A stretch of 64,000 nt of DNA, taken from positions 1 to 64,000 of the forward strand of contig CASFJU010000013.1 in the NCBI GenBank assembly GCA_949295115.1. The letters are read 5' to 3'. Positions 55,570-64,000 of the stretch are shown here, piece by piece; position 1 is the stretch's first letter; every line of letters starts with the position of its first letter. The notes beneath the pieces were generated by a model. That model had not been told where the DNA came from and did no database searches. It saw nothing but the letters and a program-made list of their open reading frames with translations. The DNA comes from an uncultured Phascolarctobacterium sp. Its GTDB lineage: Bacteria; Bacillota; Negativicutes; Acidaminococcales; Acidaminococcaceae. The position numbers and the translations under genes were made by a program.

Positions 55570-55815
55570 TTAGTTTTCTTTGTTTAACATACTTTCATTA
55601 AACAAATTTGTGTTATAAATAGCCGGGGATACGCCGGCGTCGGTGAGGTGTGGGGTTAGAATCATCAGCACTTCGGTTTTGGTTTTGCTGGTGGTGCGGT
55701 TTTTAAACAGTTCGCCTAAAAGCGGGATGTTGGATAAAAACGGCACTTTTTGCAGGCGTTTTTGTTCTTCTTCGTTAATCAACCCGCCGATGACAAGGGT
55801 TTCAACAATATAATT
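55570..55815 (-). pseudogene. C-terminal fragment of a secretin (type II/IV system or pilus)
   Basis: About 80 codons without a start. The sequence ETLVIGGLINEEEQKRL, then VPFLSNIPLLGELFKNRTTS and EVLMILTPHLTD, is the characteristic C-terminal end of secretin pore proteins (GspD/PilQ family), including the VIGGL and VPFLSNIP-LGELFK words. The rest of the gene is missing. The frame breaks off at the 13-base arm of an inverted repeat at 55803-55835. No other secretion genes are near, so this is debris of a lost locus or of a recombination event. Codon use is of core type. Confidence 0.85.
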
Positions 55816-55835
55816 ATGGTAAAATTATATTGTTG
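55803..55835. repeat. Perfect 13-bp inverted repeat at a junction of gene fragments
   Basis: CAACAATATAATT and AATTATATTGTTG are exact inverse copies separated by ATGGTAA. Each arm is translated as NYIV in the opposing open frames, and each frame is a gene end without its beginning. This looks like a scar of inverted-repeat-mediated rearrangement. Confidence 0.8.
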
Positions 55836-56800: not shown

Positions 56801-57385
56801 TTATGTTCCTGTGTTTAAATGCATGTAGTATTCAAAAAAATCTTTATGTGCTTTATTTAACTCTTCTTGTACTTCGTTAGAAAGACTATTATTATTTTGC
56901 AATTCTATTATTTTACAATATATTTTTTCAAGAGAATATATTATACTATGGCGCTTTAAATAAAGGTGTAATTCATCAAATATATATTTCCCAATTTCAT
57001 CATTAGCTATAATTTCATAATTGCTATTTCTTCTAAAATGCTTTTCATAATCAGTATCACATGGATGAACGAAGCCTTTATTATCAACAATGTTTTGCGT
57101 AGATGTTGAACCAAGCCATTTATTTGATTTATATTTATTACAATAAGGGCAGGAATATATTAAATTATGATAATCATTTTCTTTTTCTGGGAATAAAGAT
57201 TTTGGCGCAAAATGATCAATATGGAAATTTTGGGAACCGCCACAGAAGAAATCCCAATCATTACAATATCCGCAATGATTTCTAAAATCTTTTTCCAAAA
57301 ATTTTTTGTATTTTCTATAGTTGCTATATTTTACATTTAAAGAAGAATAATGTGGAGTAAAATCTCTAAAATTATCATTTGCCAT
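56801..57385 (-). CDS. HNH endonuclease, last gene of the methyltransferase island
   Basis: A 194-residue predicted nuclease. The zinc/catalytic core is complete: HCGYCNDWDFFCGG with Cys38 and Cys41, FHIDHFAPKS with the catalytic His near 58, HNLIYSCPYCNKYKSNKW with Cys79 and Cys82 and the HNH Asn. The HIDHF-PK and CPYCN-K words place it among HNH nucleases such as those of small defence modules (PtuB-type and TIGR02646-like; recall). The C-terminal ~70 residues are helical, with no motif. The start ATG overlaps the end of the receiver gene by 11 bases, so translation is coupled; a GTG three codons upstream is possible. It probably cuts DNA; the trigger would come from the co-encoded proteins (inference). 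Confidence 0.85.
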   Translation of the reverse strand: MANDNFRDFTPHYSSLNVKYSNYRKYKKFLEKDFRNHCGYCNDWDFFCGGSQNFHIDHFAPKSLFPEKENDYHNLIYSCPYCNKYKSNKWLGSTSTQNIVDNKGFVHPCDTDYEKHFRRNSNYEIIANDEIGKYIFDELHLYLKRHSIIYSLEKIYCKIIELQNNNSLSNEVQEELNKAHKDFFEYYMHLNTGT

Positions 57386-58103
57386 TGTTATCACACTTTT
57401 TAACTATGGATTCTAAAATATTTAGAAGTTGATCTAATTTATTAGATGATAGCTCTTTTTTTGTTTTGTATGGAATTGCTGATTTGCCACAAATTCTGCG
57501 TTCTAATTGAGAATCAAGTTCTAAAATCTTTGAATCAATTTCAGAAGTTCTTTTTTCAGGAGGAATATTTAATAAATTTTTTAAAGTATTTTCAATTTCT
57601 ATTTTATCCTTATTATACGCTTTAACAGTTTCAATTATTTTACTAATTATAATGAGAGAATAACTTTTAGATCTTAAAAAAGCAATATAGTCAATTATAT
57701 GAATAGGGGAAAAGACTTCTTTTTGATTGAGTTCTTCTTCATATGAAGTTAATATAAATAAAGGAAATTTATAAAAATTTTCTAAAATCTTTTTAGATAA
57801 AATTACACCATTAGTTAAAGGTGTTGAGGCAAAACTATTAAGTTTATAATCTATTATTAGGCAATCTATGTTATTTTGATTTATTTCAGAAATTATAGAA
57901 TTAGATGAGGTGTGTTTATTTAATTCTAATACAGTAAATTCAAATGAATATGAGTTATATTGTTCTAAAAGTTTAGAAGTAAATTCTAATTCATTATCAT
58001 GAAAATCTTCATTTGTGTAGTTGTGCATAAAGCGGCCTTTTAGGTGAGTTATTTTACTTTCGTCATCATCTAAAACACCAATATTTATAACTTTATTTTT
58101 CAT
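57375..58103 (-). CDS. Receiver-domain protein (response-regulator-like) without known output domain
   Basis: A 242-residue protein. Residues 5-150 resemble a CheY-like receiver: INIGVLDDDESKI with the acidic cluster Asp12-Asp14, NIDCLIIDYKLNS with candidate phosphoacceptor Asp85, PLFILTSYEEE with Thr119/Ser120, and a later Lys146 in FLRSKSY. An insertion lies between the first acidic pocket and the phosphoacceptor. The remaining ~90 residues are a charged, helical C-terminal part (EIENTLKNLLNIPPEKRTS) with no DNA-binding fold that I recognise. The ATG with AGGAAG eight bases upstream is used. It overlaps the kinase-like gene by 11 bases on one side and the HNH gene on the other. It is presumably the partner of the C-terminal kinase core upstream (inference). 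Confidence 0.8.
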   Translation of the reverse strand: MKNKVINIGVLDDDESKITHLKGRFMHNYTNEDFHDNELEFTSKLLEQYNSYSFEFTVLELNKHTSSNSIISEINQNNIDCLIIDYKLNSFASTPLTNGVILSKKILENFYKFPLFILTSYEEELNQKEVFSPIHIIDYIAFLRSKSYSLIIISKIIETVKAYNKDKIEIENTLKNLLNIPPEKRTSEIDSKILELDSQLERRICGKSAIPYKTKKELSSNKLDQLLNILESIVKKCDNNGK

Positions 58104-60426
58104 TATTTTCACTTCCTATTATAGGTATTATTATATCTAACTTAAAACCTTTTGATATGGTATCTTTAGGTAGTATATATTGTCCGTTATATTCTTCAAT
58201 AGTAGTAGAAACAATATGCATACCTAGACCTAAACCTATTTTGTTACCATTCATATCAACTTTAGAAGTTGTTGAGAATTTAAAAATATCATATTTATTT
58301 TCAAAAATTTCAGAAATACCATTTCCACTATCTGAATAATGAATGATATAATTATTGTTTTTGTATTCAAGATTGATAAAAATTTTTTTTAATGTAATAC
58401 CATCTCTTTCAAAAGCTTCACAAGAATTAATTATTAGATTATATAGAACAGCATCAATATCTGTTTGAAATACCTTTGATTTAAAATTTGAGTCATTTGT
58501 TGTTAATTTTAATTCAACATTTTTTTGTTTTAATATAGGGGATATGAGAGCTAGTGAATTTGATATAGCTAAATAAATATTTAATAATTTTCTAGTGCGC
58601 TTATCTTTTTTTAATTGAGCTGTAATTACTGACAACCAAGATAGCAAAAATTTATCATCATTTTTTAAAGCTTCTATAAGTTCCAAAAGGAATGCTTTAT
58701 TATCAATAAATTCTTCGAATTGTTCGGAACGAGTAGAAAGTTTTGCACTGAGGCTTCTTAAATCATGGACTATAGACGAAGTAATTAAGCCATTAGTAGA
58801 TAATGAGCGCATAAGTTTTAATTCAGAAAGTAATTCTTCTGTTTCTTGTTTTCTGGCGCTTAACGCTTTTACTAATATATTATTGTCATTTTCTAAAATA
58901 TTTTGAGTAGTATTAAATGCTTTTTCTTTTTTGGAATTTTTGTATTTTTTTATAAGTGCATCGGCATCAATTTTGGCCTTTTCATATTCATTGGTTTTGT
59001 CAAAATATTTTTTAAATTCATAACACAACTCAGCTCTATCACTTTCAAATTTGTTTATAATTGATATTAAAATATTTTTAAAAAGAGCATAATATTCATT
59101 GTCTATAATTCCTTCTCTACTGGATTTATCCGCAATTACTTTATTTTTAATTCTGGAAATATATACTATACCATTACTTTGGTTGTTTAATACTTTCCAA
59201 TTTCTTCGTTTATCACCAATACCAGTAGGATCTATGGCATTACGTGAATTTAAATTAAGCCAATCTGAAAAATCTGAATTTGGTTCACCATATGGGCGTA
59301 TTAAAAAATTATCTCTGTATAGTTTTATTCCATAGTTATTTTTGAGCCAGTTTTTTCTATAACTGCTAATATTTTTATAAAAAAATTTTTCTGAATGAGA
59401 AGCAGTTGCCGACTGTTTCATAAAATAATATTCAAATTTAAATGGTCCTATCATTTTTACTTTTTCAATAATATTTGTATTTTTTTTGTCAGTAATGTTT
59501 AAAAGTTCATTGATAGAATATATTTTTTTAAAAAATCCTTTTTCTAAATCTTGTTTACGAAAGGGAAATTTTTGAAATAATGGCTCATCAAATAATTTTG
59601 CAGGCATTCTGTTTAAATCAAATTCGTTTCTAAAAATAGTTATTTCAAAAGTTTCTCCATTAAATATTGATAAAATTTTATAATCAAAATCATCTTGTAT
59701 ATTATTTTGTACTAATATTGGTGTGGATAATGGTGAAGTTTGTAAGACAATACTATATTCGTCATTTTCTGCGATTGGTGGAATAAGATAATTTAAATTA
59801 TTTTCTAAATTATTTAATTTATTTGAATCCCATTTATCTCTTAAATTTGATATTTTAATAATAGTACCTATCGAAAAATCTACAGGAAGATGCTGCGGAA
59901 TAATTTTAGAAATTTTTTGATTAATTATTGTTAAATTTTTTTGTATACAAGATGGAAGATTTGAATAAAACGAATTATTTATGTAGTTTAAATCAGCTTC
60001 GACATCGGTTAGTAATTGATTTGTTTTTTCGAAGTCTGTCCAATTAGCTTTCCAGTACAGTACTTTGTTTATATCATTGGTTTTAGTAAATAACTCACAT
60101 ACAGAGCCTAATCTATCTAATGCAAAACGACCAATACCTTTTTCGCCTGATTTAATACGTTTTTTGTGTGATATATATTTTGTTCGTTTATTTTCGGTCC
60201 CGATAACCATCCAATAGTTTTTTATAGTATCTTCTGACATACCTGTGCCATTGTCTATGATATATAAACAGTCATTATTAGTATCGAATAAAATATAACA
60301 AAGAGAAGCATCAGCGTCATAAGTATTTTTTATTAATTCAATTATTGCACCTTCAGCTTTTGCTATATTTTCTCGTCCTAGTAATATTGTGGCACGTGAA
60401 GAAATTTGAAAGTTAATTTTAGCCAT
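58093..60426 (-). CDS. Dual-ATPase protein: MutL/MORC-like GHKL domain plus histidine-kinase core
   Basis: A 777-residue protein with two ATPase modules. The N-terminal module has the MutL/Hsp90/MORC-type GHKL motifs: EGAIIELIKNTYDADA with Glu30 and Asn34, IIDNGTGM at 57-63, and SGEKGIGRFALDRLG at 93-107. An S5-like transducer part follows (about 330-450), including NFLIRPYGEPNSDFSDWL and DKSSREGIIDNE. A coiled helical stretch (about 455-545) leads to a DHp-like segment with SIVHDLRSLSAKL, His554 being the candidate phosphorylation site. The C-terminal HATPase_c has N-box NLIINSCEAF (663-672), DSGNGIS (699-705) and GLGLGMHIV (731-739). No membrane segment is present, so it is a cytoplasmic sensor. 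AAGGTG precedes the ATG. It sits 14 bases after the methyltransferase. Confidence 0.88.
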   Translation of the reverse strand: MAKINFQISSRATILLGRENIAKAEGAIIELIKNTYDADASLCYILFDTNNDCLYIIDNGTGMSEDTIKNYWMVIGTENKRTKYISHKKRIKSGEKGIGRFALDRLGSVCELFTKTNDINKVLYWKANWTDFEKTNQLLTDVEADLNYINNSFYSNLPSCIQKNLTIINQKISKIIPQHLPVDFSIGTIIKISNLRDKWDSNKLNNLENNLNYLIPPIAENDEYSIVLQTSPLSTPILVQNNIQDDFDYKILSIFNGETFEITIFRNEFDLNRMPAKLFDEPLFQKFPFRKQDLEKGFFKKIYSINELLNITDKKNTNIIEKVKMIGPFKFEYYFMKQSATASHSEKFFYKNISSYRKNWLKNNYGIKLYRDNFLIRPYGEPNSDFSDWLNLNSRNAIDPTGIGDKRRNWKVLNNQSNGIVYISRIKNKVIADKSSREGIIDNEYYALFKNILISIINKFESDRAELCYEFKKYFDKTNEYEKAKIDADALIKKYKNSKKEKAFNTTQNILENDNNILVKALSARKQETEELLSELKLMRSLSTNGLITSSIVHDLRSLSAKLSTRSEQFEEFIDNKAFLLELIEALKNDDKFLLSWLSVITAQLKKDKRTRKLLNIYLAISNSLALISPILKQKNVELKLTTNDSNFKSKVFQTDIDAVLYNLIINSCEAFERDGITLKKIFINLEYKNNNYIIHYSDSGNGISEIFENKYDIFKFSTTSKVDMNGNKIGLGLGMHIVSTTIEEYNGQYILPKDTISKGFKLDIIIPIIGSENNEK

Positions 60427-60440
60427 GTGAAATTCACCTT

Positions 60441-61904
60441 CTATAGAATAAAATTATTTATATCTTTCACTGTTATTCTTTTAGAAAATCCATTTGCATT
60501 TATTCCTATTATTTTAATATATTCCCAAAATTTTTGAGACTCTAAAATTTTTTTTGCTAAATTTAAATCGTTATTATTTTTAGGAGTAATAAAAATACCT
60601 GAAAAAGGCACAGTTTCTGAATCGATATTATATACAAACACTTTATTTGTAATTATTGTAGATAACAATAATTTTTCTTGATTTATGTTTTGTAGAGCTT
60701 GAGAACGTCCATATTCAAACCAGTTTGCAGATTTATCGGATGCTCTCTTTAATAATTGTGTTTTATATGTTTGTAGATATTCTGCTGTACGCGGATAAGC
60801 TAGTCTAAATTCAGCTGTATTTTTAAATTTTGAATATAAATTATTTTCAAGTTTTTTATAAGGAAAAATAATAAAATAGTTTGTATTATAAGCTTTTGAT
60901 TTTGGACTAGCACAAGGGCGGATTGAAGATTTTTCAATTTTGTATATTTTATTGTTAATTTTCAATCTATAATATTGATCATTTAAGCTTATTAGATTAT
61001 TAGATTTTATTAAAAAAGCTTTATTAAAAAGAGTAGCAATACTAATAGATGCGTGGAATAAATCTCCAAATTTTAAAGAATTACTTTTTGGTCGTTTTTT
61101 TATAAATAGCCATTTCCCGGATAATTCATCTTTATCTATATGTAATGTGCTTTTATTTTTAAAATTAATGTATTCTAGTTGAGAAATGTTGTTTTTAAAA
61201 TGGCATGTAAATATAACTGATGAAGTTAATACATTATTAAAAAGAGAAAGACCTGAATAATCAATAATTAGATTAATATATGGTTTTAATATTTTGCGAA
61301 GTTCTTCAGCATAAACATTTTTGAAAATACTATTAGGAACAATAAAAGACAGTTTTGCCTCTGTGGATAAAATATTTAAACTTGCTTCTATAAATGGATA
61401 AAAATAATCAAACTTCCCTTTTTGGCAAGAAATAAAATGAGTATTTATATATTTTCTGGTTTGAATATCTAATTCAGTATAATTTATATAAGGAGGATTA
61501 GCAACAATATAATCAAATTTTATTTTTATATTTTTGTTAGTATATTCTTTTAAAAAATCTTTATTATAGATGTTCCATTTTACATTAAAAATGCCATGCT
61601 TCGTAGCGATTTCAGATAAATTTTTTTTGCATATTTGGCAACATAATGGATCTACATCGTAACCATAAATATATGTTTCTAAACCCGTTTTTATTTCTTC
61701 AACAGACCAGTTATTTTTTTGTGCATCCTTTAAATATCTTTCAACTATTAGTATTAAAATGTTACCTTGTCCGCATGAGTTTTCTAATATATATTTTTTT
61801 ATAATATTACTATTATAACCAATGCTATCTAAAAGTTTTTTAGCTATATCATTTGGAGTAAAAATTTGATGTTTTTTTAAATTATCATTATTATTGAAAT
61901 GCAT
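60441..61904 (-). CDS. N6-adenine DNA methyltransferase (gamma class, TaqI/Eco57I-like)
   Basis: Predicted to methylate adenine in a specific DNA sequence. The 487-residue protein has motif X in HQIFTPNDIAKKLLDSIG, the SAM-binding motif I in LENSCGQGNILILIVERYL, motif II in YGYDVDPLCC, and the catalytic NPPY (IVANPPYINYTELD) near residue 136. The order and the NPPY fit class gamma enzymes, such as M.TaqI and the methylase part of Eco57I. The C-terminal ~300 residues probably hold the target-recognition domain. No nuclease domain is fused. The ATG at MHFNNNDNL has AAAGGAA six bases upstream. An in-frame start 13 codons earlier has none. It is the first gene of the four-gene unit. It could act as a cognate modification enzyme that marks self DNA (inference). 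Confidence 0.88.
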   Translation of the reverse strand: MHFNNNDNLKKHQIFTPNDIAKKLLDSIGYNSNIIKKYILENSCGQGNILILIVERYLKDAQKNNWSVEEIKTGLETYIYGYDVDPLCCQICKKNLSEIATKHGIFNVKWNIYNKDFLKEYTNKNIKIKFDYIVANPPYINYTELDIQTRKYINTHFISCQKGKFDYFYPFIEASLNILSTEAKLSFIVPNSIFKNVYAEELRKILKPYINLIIDYSGLSLFNNVLTSSVIFTCHFKNNISQLEYINFKNKSTLHIDKDELSGKWLFIKKRPKSNSLKFGDLFHASISIATLFNKAFLIKSNNLISLNDQYYRLKINNKIYKIEKSSIRPCASPKSKAYNTNYFIIFPYKKLENNLYSKFKNTAEFRLAYPRTAEYLQTYKTQLLKRASDKSANWFEYGRSQALQNINQEKLLLSTIITNKVFVYNIDSETVPFSGIFITPKNNNDLNLAKKILESQKFWEYIKIIGINANGFSKRITVKDINNFIL

Positions 61905-62468
61905 ATAAAATTCCTTTGTAAACTCCAATGATTTATGTTGCAATAAGATGGAGTTGAGATGATTATTTGTTATATAAAGTGTAAATAATTCTTCAAAACT
62001 TTATGATTATATTCATTAAAAATAATAACATACAAAATTTGAAATAACAAGATATTTAATTTGTTTCAAAAAGTGTTTATTTAATAACAATTGGTATTCT
62101 TAATTTAATTTATAATGTTATTTTGAATTTACTAAGAATTGATTATTTATTATTATAAAAAAGAAATATTAAATTAGTAGTAAATAAGTATATTAAGATA
62201 TGTTAAGTAAGAATAGCATTGAATAATTCTTTTGGTTATTAATTGAATTTAAATTCATTTTTGAGATTATGTTGTGTCTATATTTTGACGCGAATAACTA
62301 TATAAAAGTGGTATTTTTACGTAGTATGTAATAATGTGTTTGTATCAGATAAAAACATACTTTGAGTTCTATGTAGTTGATGAGCTGCATCTATTGTATC
62401 AAAAATGTACTGGGAAAATTTAAATGGTAGTACGTAAAAGAGAATTACAAATACTATAGCGTATTCGT
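61905..62468. other. AT-rich region upstream of the island operon, no gene seen
   Basis: No open frame of note. The promoter of the four-gene unit should lie at its left end. On the minus strand a weak match TTGAAG-N16-TATAAC lies roughly 75-100 bases upstream of the methyltransferase start. The right part (62340-62468) has sense-like pieces with stops, probably the lost N-terminus of the transposase remnant. Confidence 0.45.
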
Positions 62469-62764: not shown

Positions 62765-63055
62765 ACAATAAATGCAATTAGTGGTAGTTTAGGATAATGC
62801 ACAAACGTATAAAATGTTATACAAACCTCATCGTAATGTGTAGAAGTGCAAAAATCACTATGCTACGAATATAAATGATGAATTAATAACGAATTTCAAA
62901 ATATTATATTGTATTTATTTGTTTCTTAATATAAATAAAAAAATATATAATTAATACAGAAAAGATTTGAGTGAAATTTTGAAGAAACTATGTAACTAAA
63001 AAGGTATAGAAATATAAATAGGATGATATAATATAAATTTATTGTGTGAAGATTT
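62765..63055. other. AT-rich intergenic region, nothing recognised
   Basis: Mostly A and T, with no open frame, promoter or terminator that I can support. The border to core-like composition is sharp at about 63055, where the transporter gene ends. Confidence 0.5.
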
Positions 63056-64000
63056 TTATTGCGATGTGTCGGGTTTTGCCAGAATTTTAACCGGGTTCCA
63101 GCGTTCGCTTTTGTAATACCAGTACAGGCTGGCAACGGTAAACACCCATGTAATTGGGTACACCCACGCCACTCCGTCGGGGGTGGGGTTAAAGTACATA
63201 ATCAGCTTCAGCACGCAAATGCGTATAACGCACATGTTCAGCAAAATAATAAACATCGTCGGTAAGGTGCTGCCGCTGCCGCGGATGGCGGAAGCCAGCA
63301 CTTCGAGGAAAACGTACAGAAAGTAAAACGGCATGATGACAAAGGCAATGCTGCTGCCGATGGCGATAACGTCTTTATCATTGGTAAACAGCCCGAAGGC
63401 AAAATCCGCAAGGTACAGCACTGCACAGATAGTAACGGCGGTAACGGCAAGGCCGAAGTAAATGGAAATAGTAGTGCCGCGCTTGCTGCGCATAATTTTG
63501 CCGACGCCGACGTTCTGGCTGACGAAGGTGGAACACGCCTGCCCGATAGCCATTATCGGCAGGTAAATGACGTTTTCAATCTTAAAATAAGCGGCGTAAG
63601 CGGTAATGCTGTTAACGCCGAGACCGTTGATATTGGTCTGCACAACGATGTTGGAAAGCGTAATAACCGTTGTCTGTATCGCCGCCGGTATGCCGATGCG
63701 GAAAATCTCGCGCGCCAGAGGCCAGTCGATGCAGATTTGTTTGAAGTGCAGGCGGTAACGCTCGTCCATAGTGCACAGGTGGCGGATGACAAGCCCTGCA
63801 GCCAGAGTCTGCGAAACAACAGTTGCCATGGCGGAACCGGTAATGCCGAAGTTCCAGTAATACACAAACAAAAAGTTGCCGATGACGTTGGCGATGCCGC
63901 CGATAAGTTGGTAAATCATCGGTGAAAGCGAATTGCCCAGCGCCCTTAAAATGCCGCTGCCCACGTTATAGCTGACGATGGAAAACAAGCTGAGCAGAAA
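63056..64000 (-). CDS. MATE-family efflux transporter (partial, N-terminus beyond the window)
   Basis: The C-terminal two-thirds (314 codons) of a multidrug/toxin extrusion carrier that uses an ion gradient to export cationic compounds. Repeated membrane helices are seen, with NVGSGILRALGNSLSPMIYQ near the left end of the fragment, GIPAAIQTTVITLSNIVVQT in the middle and ASAIRGSGSTLPTMFIILLN later. The paired RALGNS and AIRGSGS segments come from the two pseudo-symmetric halves of the MATE fold. The frame stays open to the window edge. Composition is core-like, unlike the AT-rich island beside it. No terminator is visible after the stop codon. Confidence 0.93.
   Translation of the reverse strand, partial: FLLSLFSIVSYNVGSGILRALGNSLSPMIYQLIGGIANVIGNFLFVYYWNFGITGSAMATVVSQTLAAGLVIRHLCTMDERYRLHFKQICIDWPLAREIFRIGIPAAIQTTVITLSNIVVQTNINGLGVNSITAYAAYFKIENVIYLPIMAIGQACSTFVSQNVGVGKIMRSKRGTTISIYFGLAVTAVTICAVLYLADFAFGLFTNDKDVIAIGSSIAFVIMPFYFLYVFLEVLASAIRGSGSTLPTMFIILLNMCVIRICVLKLIMYFNPTPDGVAWVYPITWVFTVASLYWYYKSERWNPVKILAKPDTSQ

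Follow-up and report, generated by a model that had tools for sequence, protein, structure and literature searches.

A conserved and mobile four-gene unit with a putative defence role, encoding a predicted adenine methyltransferase, a MORC-type ATPase-histidine kinase, a receiver and an HNH protein, in Phascolarctobacterium

Organization of the locus

The DNA analysed here, referred to below as the window, is a stretch of 64,000 nucleotides from an uncultured Phascolarctobacterium sp. Positions 56801-61904 contain four intact open reading frames (ORFs) on the minus strand, which, in order of transcription, are the genes for a DNA methyltransferase (MTase; 60441..61904, ATG at 61904), a 777 aa kinase (58093..60426), a 242 aa receiver protein (57375..58103) and a 194 aa HNH protein (56801..57385). 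A TTG at 61943 is a possible alternative start for the MTase and would give a longer ORF. The sequence and the ORF coordinates leave 14 bases between the MTase and kinase genes (60427..60440, minus strand) and give overlaps of 11 bases, on the same strand, between the kinase and receiver genes (58093-58103) and between the receiver and HNH genes (57375-57385), as an earlier note on this DNA had reported. No terminator was found in a sequence scan, and promoter-like sites were not in excess over shuffled sequences.

The nearest relative, L002, is also from an uncultured Phascolarctobacterium, and the amino acid identities of the four genes to it are 64, 70, 59 and 51 %. In each gene the differences are most frequent at codon position 3, followed by position 1 and then position 2, and the four ORFs are therefore selected genes rather than debris, with purifying selection acting on all of them.

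The GC content of the operon is 23-26 %, compared with about 52 % for the genome region. The operon forms the end of an AT-rich island of approximately 21 kb that also includes a polysaccharide cluster (approximately 42-55 kb), and because this region to the left is AT-rich too, the operon lies within a larger variable island. Hence, the earlier description of the genes as AT-rich and unlike their flanks is correct for the operon but not for its left flank. The similarity of the window to five congeners (L139-L143) ends sharply at approximately 63053-63076, which is the end of a MATE gene. In four of these congeners a DNA-glycosylase-like gene is adjacent to the MATE gene (in L141 it is further away), and the AT-rich island occupies this position in the window. 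The four genes had also been said to be surrounded by gene debris. This holds for 55570-55824, which is a C-terminal fragment of a secretin (PF00263, E 3.6e-19) of type II/III secretion and adjoins a dTDP-glucose dehydratase-like gene, but the remaining putative debris pieces tested around the operon did not match anything.

Predicted properties of the four proteins

The MTase matches the Pfam families Eco57I (E 1.8e-20) and N6_Mtase (1e-12) and the PADLOC model MTase_II (E 2.5e-64). It includes an NPPY motif, encoded at approximately 61488-61499 on the minus strand, and NPP is invariant in all 20 MTases aligned. It is predicted to be an Eco57I-like N6-adenine DNA methyltransferase, and belongs to the family designated M1 below. 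Its M1 orthologues, found in L002, L025, L032, L039, L057 and L131, score 286-620 bits.

The kinase matches both HATPase_c_3 (2.4e-18) and HATPase_c (3.4e-09) in Pfam, and its AlphaFold model has a pLDDT of 80.6. In the model, residues 19-468 (59023..60372, minus strand) form an ATPase plus transducer module of the MORC/MutL/Hsp90 type, which aligns with MORC3 (5ix2) with Z 18.1 over 293 aa, with Hsp90 with Z of about 17 and with MutL (1b63) with Z 16.6. The catalytic-Glu motif, ELxxNxxDAD, is retained in this ATPase, and E30 is found in 22 of 23 kinases. Residues 534-771 (58114..58827, minus strand) are modelled as a complete DHp-CA histidine kinase module, with Z 19.1 over 208 aa against the DHp-CA of HK853 (6azr). 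The DHp includes the phospho-His, H554 (58765-58767, minus strand), which is present in all 23 kinases, as are the ATP-site residues N663, N667 and G731/G733/G735; D699 is present in 21 of the 23. The modelled structure thus predicts a MORC/MutL/Hsp90-type ATPase fused ahead of a complete histidine kinase.

For the receiver protein, the Pfam match to Response_reg was under threshold (E 0.004), and Foldseek alone gave only weak matches, none with E < 0.001. However, its structure model (pLDDT 85.5) aligns with the ArcA receiver (1xhf) with Z 13.3 over 118 aa using VIA-align, and a true receiver fold is clearly predicted. The C-terminal tail is helical, and a helix-turn-helix (HTH) was not detected in the protein by Pfam or in the structure. 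The phospho-Asp is D85 (57849-57851, minus strand). Both the phospho-Asp and the Thr are found in all 22 receivers, and the first acidic residue is found in 20 of the 22. The conserved Lys of classical receivers, which helps signalling, is replaced in the subclade that includes the window (window, L002, L032 and L057), where the phospho-Asp is retained. The conserved phospho-His in a DHp and phospho-Asp in a receiver are the features expected of a two-component pair and, together with the modelled DHp-CA and receiver folds, bear out the earlier assignment of these two proteins as sensor kinase and receiver.

The HNH protein matches the Pfam HNH family (3.5e-08) and the PADLOC model PtuB (E 2e-16). 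The HNH active site and two CxxC zinc pairs are encoded at approximately 57116-57274 on the minus strand, and the catalytic His/Asn and the Cys pairs are conserved in 21-22 of 22 HNH proteins. It is a predicted endonuclease of the PtuB/TIGR02646-like fold family. No recognition domain was found in its 194 aa, a point to which we return below.

Conservation and distribution

Plasmids, genomes and viral contigs were searched with the kinase and with the HNH protein, and neighbouring genes were called using purpose-built profiles. Members of the kinase clade were defined by a profile score of ≥404 bits for intact genes, with the addition of two loci with broken kinase genes. This gave 25 non-redundant loci, the window and 24 others, from four phyla (Bacillota, Bacteroidota, Pseudomonadota and Deinococcota) as well as from plasmids and proviruses. 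Named carriers are Phascolarctobacterium, Bacteroides finegoldii, Salipiger profundus, Ensifer adhaerens, Rhizobium phaseoli, Klebsiella variicola and Deinococcus gobiensis.

In all 24 readable loci, including the window, the kinase, receiver and HNH genes follow one another in this order on one strand without a break; the contig carrying the 25th ends within the kinase gene and this locus was left out of the count. An MTase gene adjoins the trio in all 23 loci where the contig allows it to be seen, so that the linkage of a DNA MTase to a nuclease gene that is characteristic of type II restriction-modification (R-M) systems is found throughout. The MTase is upstream in 13 loci (window, L002, L013, L014, L025, L032, L039, L054, L057, L061, L062, L064 and L131) and downstream in 10 (L004-L007, L033, L035-L038 and L041, with L033 counted from an open-ended ORF). 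In the reciprocal search of the viral contigs with the HNH protein, all seven strong matches (E ≤3e-26) were loci already found via the kinase. For this search an alignment of 7 rows was workable, whereas the diversity of a 16-row alignment made it unsuitable. These results agree with the earlier view that the genes form one unit, and extend it to conserved co-occurrence.

The type is rare in the genomes sampled, with 4 carriers in 380 Negativicutes genomes (including the genome containing the window), and only that same genome among 398 Bacillota. Phage isolate genomes yielded only two distant matches, blastn at the DNA level with three different queries found no Escherichia coli carriers, and tblastn of plasmids with the receiver alone gave no matches, which is attributed to the receiver diverging too fast. 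In L007 (R. phaseoli) and L014 (K. variicola) the four genes are recognisable, and these copies look decayed because two or three ORFs take the place of an intact kinase gene.

Three annotated copies lie on plasmids, and the copies in proviruses adjoin genes for a tail protein, an endolysin or an integrase. In Ensifer (L006), the PADLOC-listed defence pair NsnA/NsnB is just upstream of the operon (L006:4422-6706). Prophages, plasmids and the neighbourhoods of defence genes are places where defence and superinfection-exclusion genes occur. Mobility of the unit is supported by the plasmid and provirus copies, and we conclude that the four-gene unit is real, conserved and mobile.

Exchange of modules

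The MTases of the loci with an HNH gene fall into four families, M1 (which includes that of the window), M2, M3 and a single one from Deinococcus, with scores of 229-743 bits within families and approximately 20-70 bits or no match between them. M2 comprises all of the intact downstream MTases, with an M.Eco57I C-terminal domain in L004, and M3 is common to HNH-type loci and to sister loci that carry a metallo-beta-lactamase (MBL)-fold protein. The MTase has thus been exchanged among four unrelated families. On the kinase tree, only a single change is needed to account for the upstream and downstream MTase positions. Kinase distances correlate more closely with those of the receiver (r 0.86) and the HNH protein (r 0.86) than with those of the MTase (0.75), all of these values being partly due to shared descent. 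Kinase, receiver and HNH protein evolve together.

In the sister loci (L008, L010, L068, L070 and L073), the order is MTase-kinase-receiver-MBL, with the MBL-fold protein in place of the HNH protein, and the C-terminal part of the receiver differs. The kinase tree separates the HNH-type, the MBL-type, a further N6-MTase type and a C5-MTase type. Each effector type thus goes with its own kinase clade, which suggests that the kinase side is coupled directly to the nuclease. A third set of relatives (L106:7658-8389, L084:6461-7210, L072:6497-7285 and L100:6299-7054) has a 244-263 aa protein with a conserved HFHHGG or HFQHGG/HFQYGG motif, together with an N6-MTase, the kinase and a receiver of 377-410 aa; the motif protein of L106, the one tested, matched no Pfam family above threshold. 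In L012:4670-9462, from a Stenotrophomonas plasmid, a C5-MTase, a kinase and a receiver are found with a 226 aa protein that contains ISHG...AISCG and looks caspase/CHAT-like by eye, although Pfam gives no support for this.

A single HNH family occurs with MTases of four unrelated families, which suggests that recognition sits outside the HNH protein itself, in the clamp, in an MTase complex or in the modification state of the DNA. This also argues against classical recognition of a cognate motif by the HNH protein.

Comparison with known systems

In agreement with the earlier note, which could not assign the genes to a named defence system, a comparison with PADLOC-DB 2.0.0 gave no match for the kinase and only noise (E 0.09) for the receiver. 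In a search of open-access journal papers, the four-gene set was not found to be described. A figure in the DefensePredictor study (PMC13092281) includes a system with HATPase and REC domains that is predicted but unvalidated, and which may or may not be the same set.

The closest published parallel is a kinase with HATPase_c_3, HEF_HK and HATPase_c domains that is encoded beside Response_reg_2 proteins in R-M neighbourhoods (Bellieny-Rabelo 2021; PMC8011034). The window likewise has a protein with HATPase_c_3, a His helix and HATPase_c beside a receiver gene. However, the partners of the HEF_HK/Response_reg_2 pair are mainly a C5-MTase and Vsr, with HNH variants occasionally nearby (PMC8011034), whereas the type described here has an N6-MTase as a constant partner, together with a single HNH subfamily. 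PF19191 (HEF_HK) did not match the window kinase at E ≤1 or any of five relatives at E ≤0.5, and PF19192 (Response_reg_2) did not match the window receiver at E ≤1 or any of four relatives at E ≤0.5. PF19191 was also not found in 61 related genomes, including that of the window, though the control genomes gave no match either. Because matches to these two families are lacking, the set is a separate branch, related to the HEF_HK/Response_reg_2 pairs, in which the gene content is fixed.

The paraMORC families are found in R-M operons, and paraMORC1 GHKL proteins are encoded near HNH genes (Iyer 2008; PMC2292703). In fold and motifs, the kinase would fit the description of paraMORC1, which is a MORC-like GHKL+S5 module with intact ATP motifs and a conserved C-terminal extension, in an R-M context. 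However, a kinase and receiver were not recognised there, and the paraMORC1 operons mostly include SFII helicases and C5-MTases, which are absent here. The linkage through a sensor kinase and a receiver had been called unusual. This is true in that the fixed set is a distinct variant, but paraMORC1 GHKL proteins near HNH genes (PMC2292703) and a pair of a HATPase_c_3 histidine kinase and a receiver near R-M genes (PMC8011034) are already known, and the general theme of a paraMORC kinase and receiver with a link to R-M dates from these papers of 2008 and 2021. VcSduA, a Shedu protein with a GHKL domain, is a precedent for a GHKL-domain protein that operates a defence nuclease, and its GHKL clamp was proposed to control the nuclease in phage defence (PMC12137116). 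However, that nuclease is a fused PD-(D/E)xK domain, and VcSduA lacks an MTase, a kinase half and a receiver.

Several catalogued systems share one component with the set. The HNH protein of Septu and retron-Ec78 (PtuAB) belongs to the same broad family (PtuB, TIGR02646), but these systems were rejected as the HNH protein of the window falls far below the PtuB (23.5 bits against a cut-off of 150) and TIGR02646 cut-offs, and neither a PtuA-type P-loop ATPase nor a reverse transcriptase is present. BREX, DISARM and MADS include an N6-MTase within a multi-gene defence operon, but the MTase similarity is weak and none of their other genes are among the four, and membership of these systems was rejected. 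Detocs defends via histidine kinase and receiver proteins, with a receiver-fused ATP-cleaving enzyme as effector and, to our knowledge, with neither a MORC-type clamp nor an MTase. The four-gene set has an HNH protein, a MORC-type clamp and an MTase instead of the ATP-cleaving receiver fusion, and does not belong to Detocs.

Possible function

A defence role for the four-gene set is likely. The fixed order, co-evolution, MTase exchange and effector replacement indicate a modular restriction or anti-phage system, and our preferred reading, to which we give a probability of about 0.58, is a mobile, modular restriction-type system, probably anti-phage or for superinfection exclusion, in which the signal from a clamp-kinase reaches the nuclease via the receiver. 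We infer the defence function, DNA sensing, phosphotransfer, control of the HNH protein by the receiver and DNA as the target. The MTase would mark self DNA at a motif differing between loci, and the 777 aa protein would act as a MORC/MutL-like clamp that is driven by ATP and meets DNA that is foreign or unmodified, or a different cue of infection. On detection, it would autophosphorylate at H554 and the phosphate would pass to D85 of the receiver, which, via its effector-specific helical tail, may free or activate the HNH nuclease to cut DNA. The scheme in the earlier note, namely self marking by the MTase, sensing by the ATPase, phosphotransfer and activation of the HNH protein, is plausible. 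A more specific version is tentative and, in our view, falls short of being probable, namely that a His-Asp phosphorelay gates the system, which would then be a new class of restriction, in which the clamp-kinase reads DNA modification status and licenses interchangeable HNH or MBL effectors via dedicated receivers, while swappable MTases set the self mark.

The chief alternative is that the proteins form a restriction complex without a phosphorelay, in which the clamp loads or activates the HNH protein directly, the receiver serves as a structural adaptor or as an inhibitor, and ATP is used by the kinase half only as a conformational switch. The loss of the receiver Lys in the window subclade favours it and counts against the preferred reading. 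MORC/paraMORC proteins that lack kinase parts are already known to function beside nucleases (PMC2292703), and VcSduA, which is of the paraMORC3 type, defends via a fused nuclease without a receiver (PMC12137116). Nevertheless, we consider it unlikely, given the retention of the phospho-His in every kinase, of the phospho-Asp and Thr in every receiver and of the full histidine kinase ATP site, and the complete DHp-CA fold in the model; the invariant phosphoacceptor residues favour real phosphotransfer. Somewhat less probable still is a suicide or addiction function, with loss of methylation or phage takeover triggering the HNH protein on host DNA, leading to abortive infection or post-segregational killing. 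This would suit the carriage on plasmids and prophages, the relationship of the HNH protein to PtuB/TIGR02646 effectors and the absence of an obvious recognition subunit. How self DNA would be spared by an HNH protein with no recognition domain found is also a point against the preferred reading. Against a suicide or addiction function, all readable loci retain the MTase, which is more typical of self-protection from a DNA cutter, though compatible with addiction.

That the kinase and receiver, which are of the two-component kind and in the same predicted operon, merely control how an MTase/HNH restriction system of the ordinary kind is expressed is very improbable, as the receiver ends in a helical tail with no HTH detected and the effector type tracks the kinase clade; an ordinary transcriptional two-component system was rejected. 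A decayed or chance cluster without joint function is extremely improbable and was also rejected. The debris in the flanks and the broken kinase genes in 2 of the 25 loci would fit, but it is contradicted by the presence of the same set in four phyla and by the purifying selection on all four genes. A further point against the preferred reading is that related kinases are paired with C5-MTases and Vsr, a setting in which the function could conceivably be repair or regulation.

If the preferred reading is true, bacteria would use two-component phosphotransfer to arm a DNA-cutting enzyme rather than to change gene expression, with a MORC/MutL-type clamp as the input, and signal transduction, mismatch-repair/MORC ATPases and restriction would become linked. 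The mechanism by which eukaryotic MORC ATPases silence DNA is debated, and these proteins would provide testable bacterial relatives. The interchangeable MTases and effectors would allow what the clamp reads to be tested directly by module swapping.
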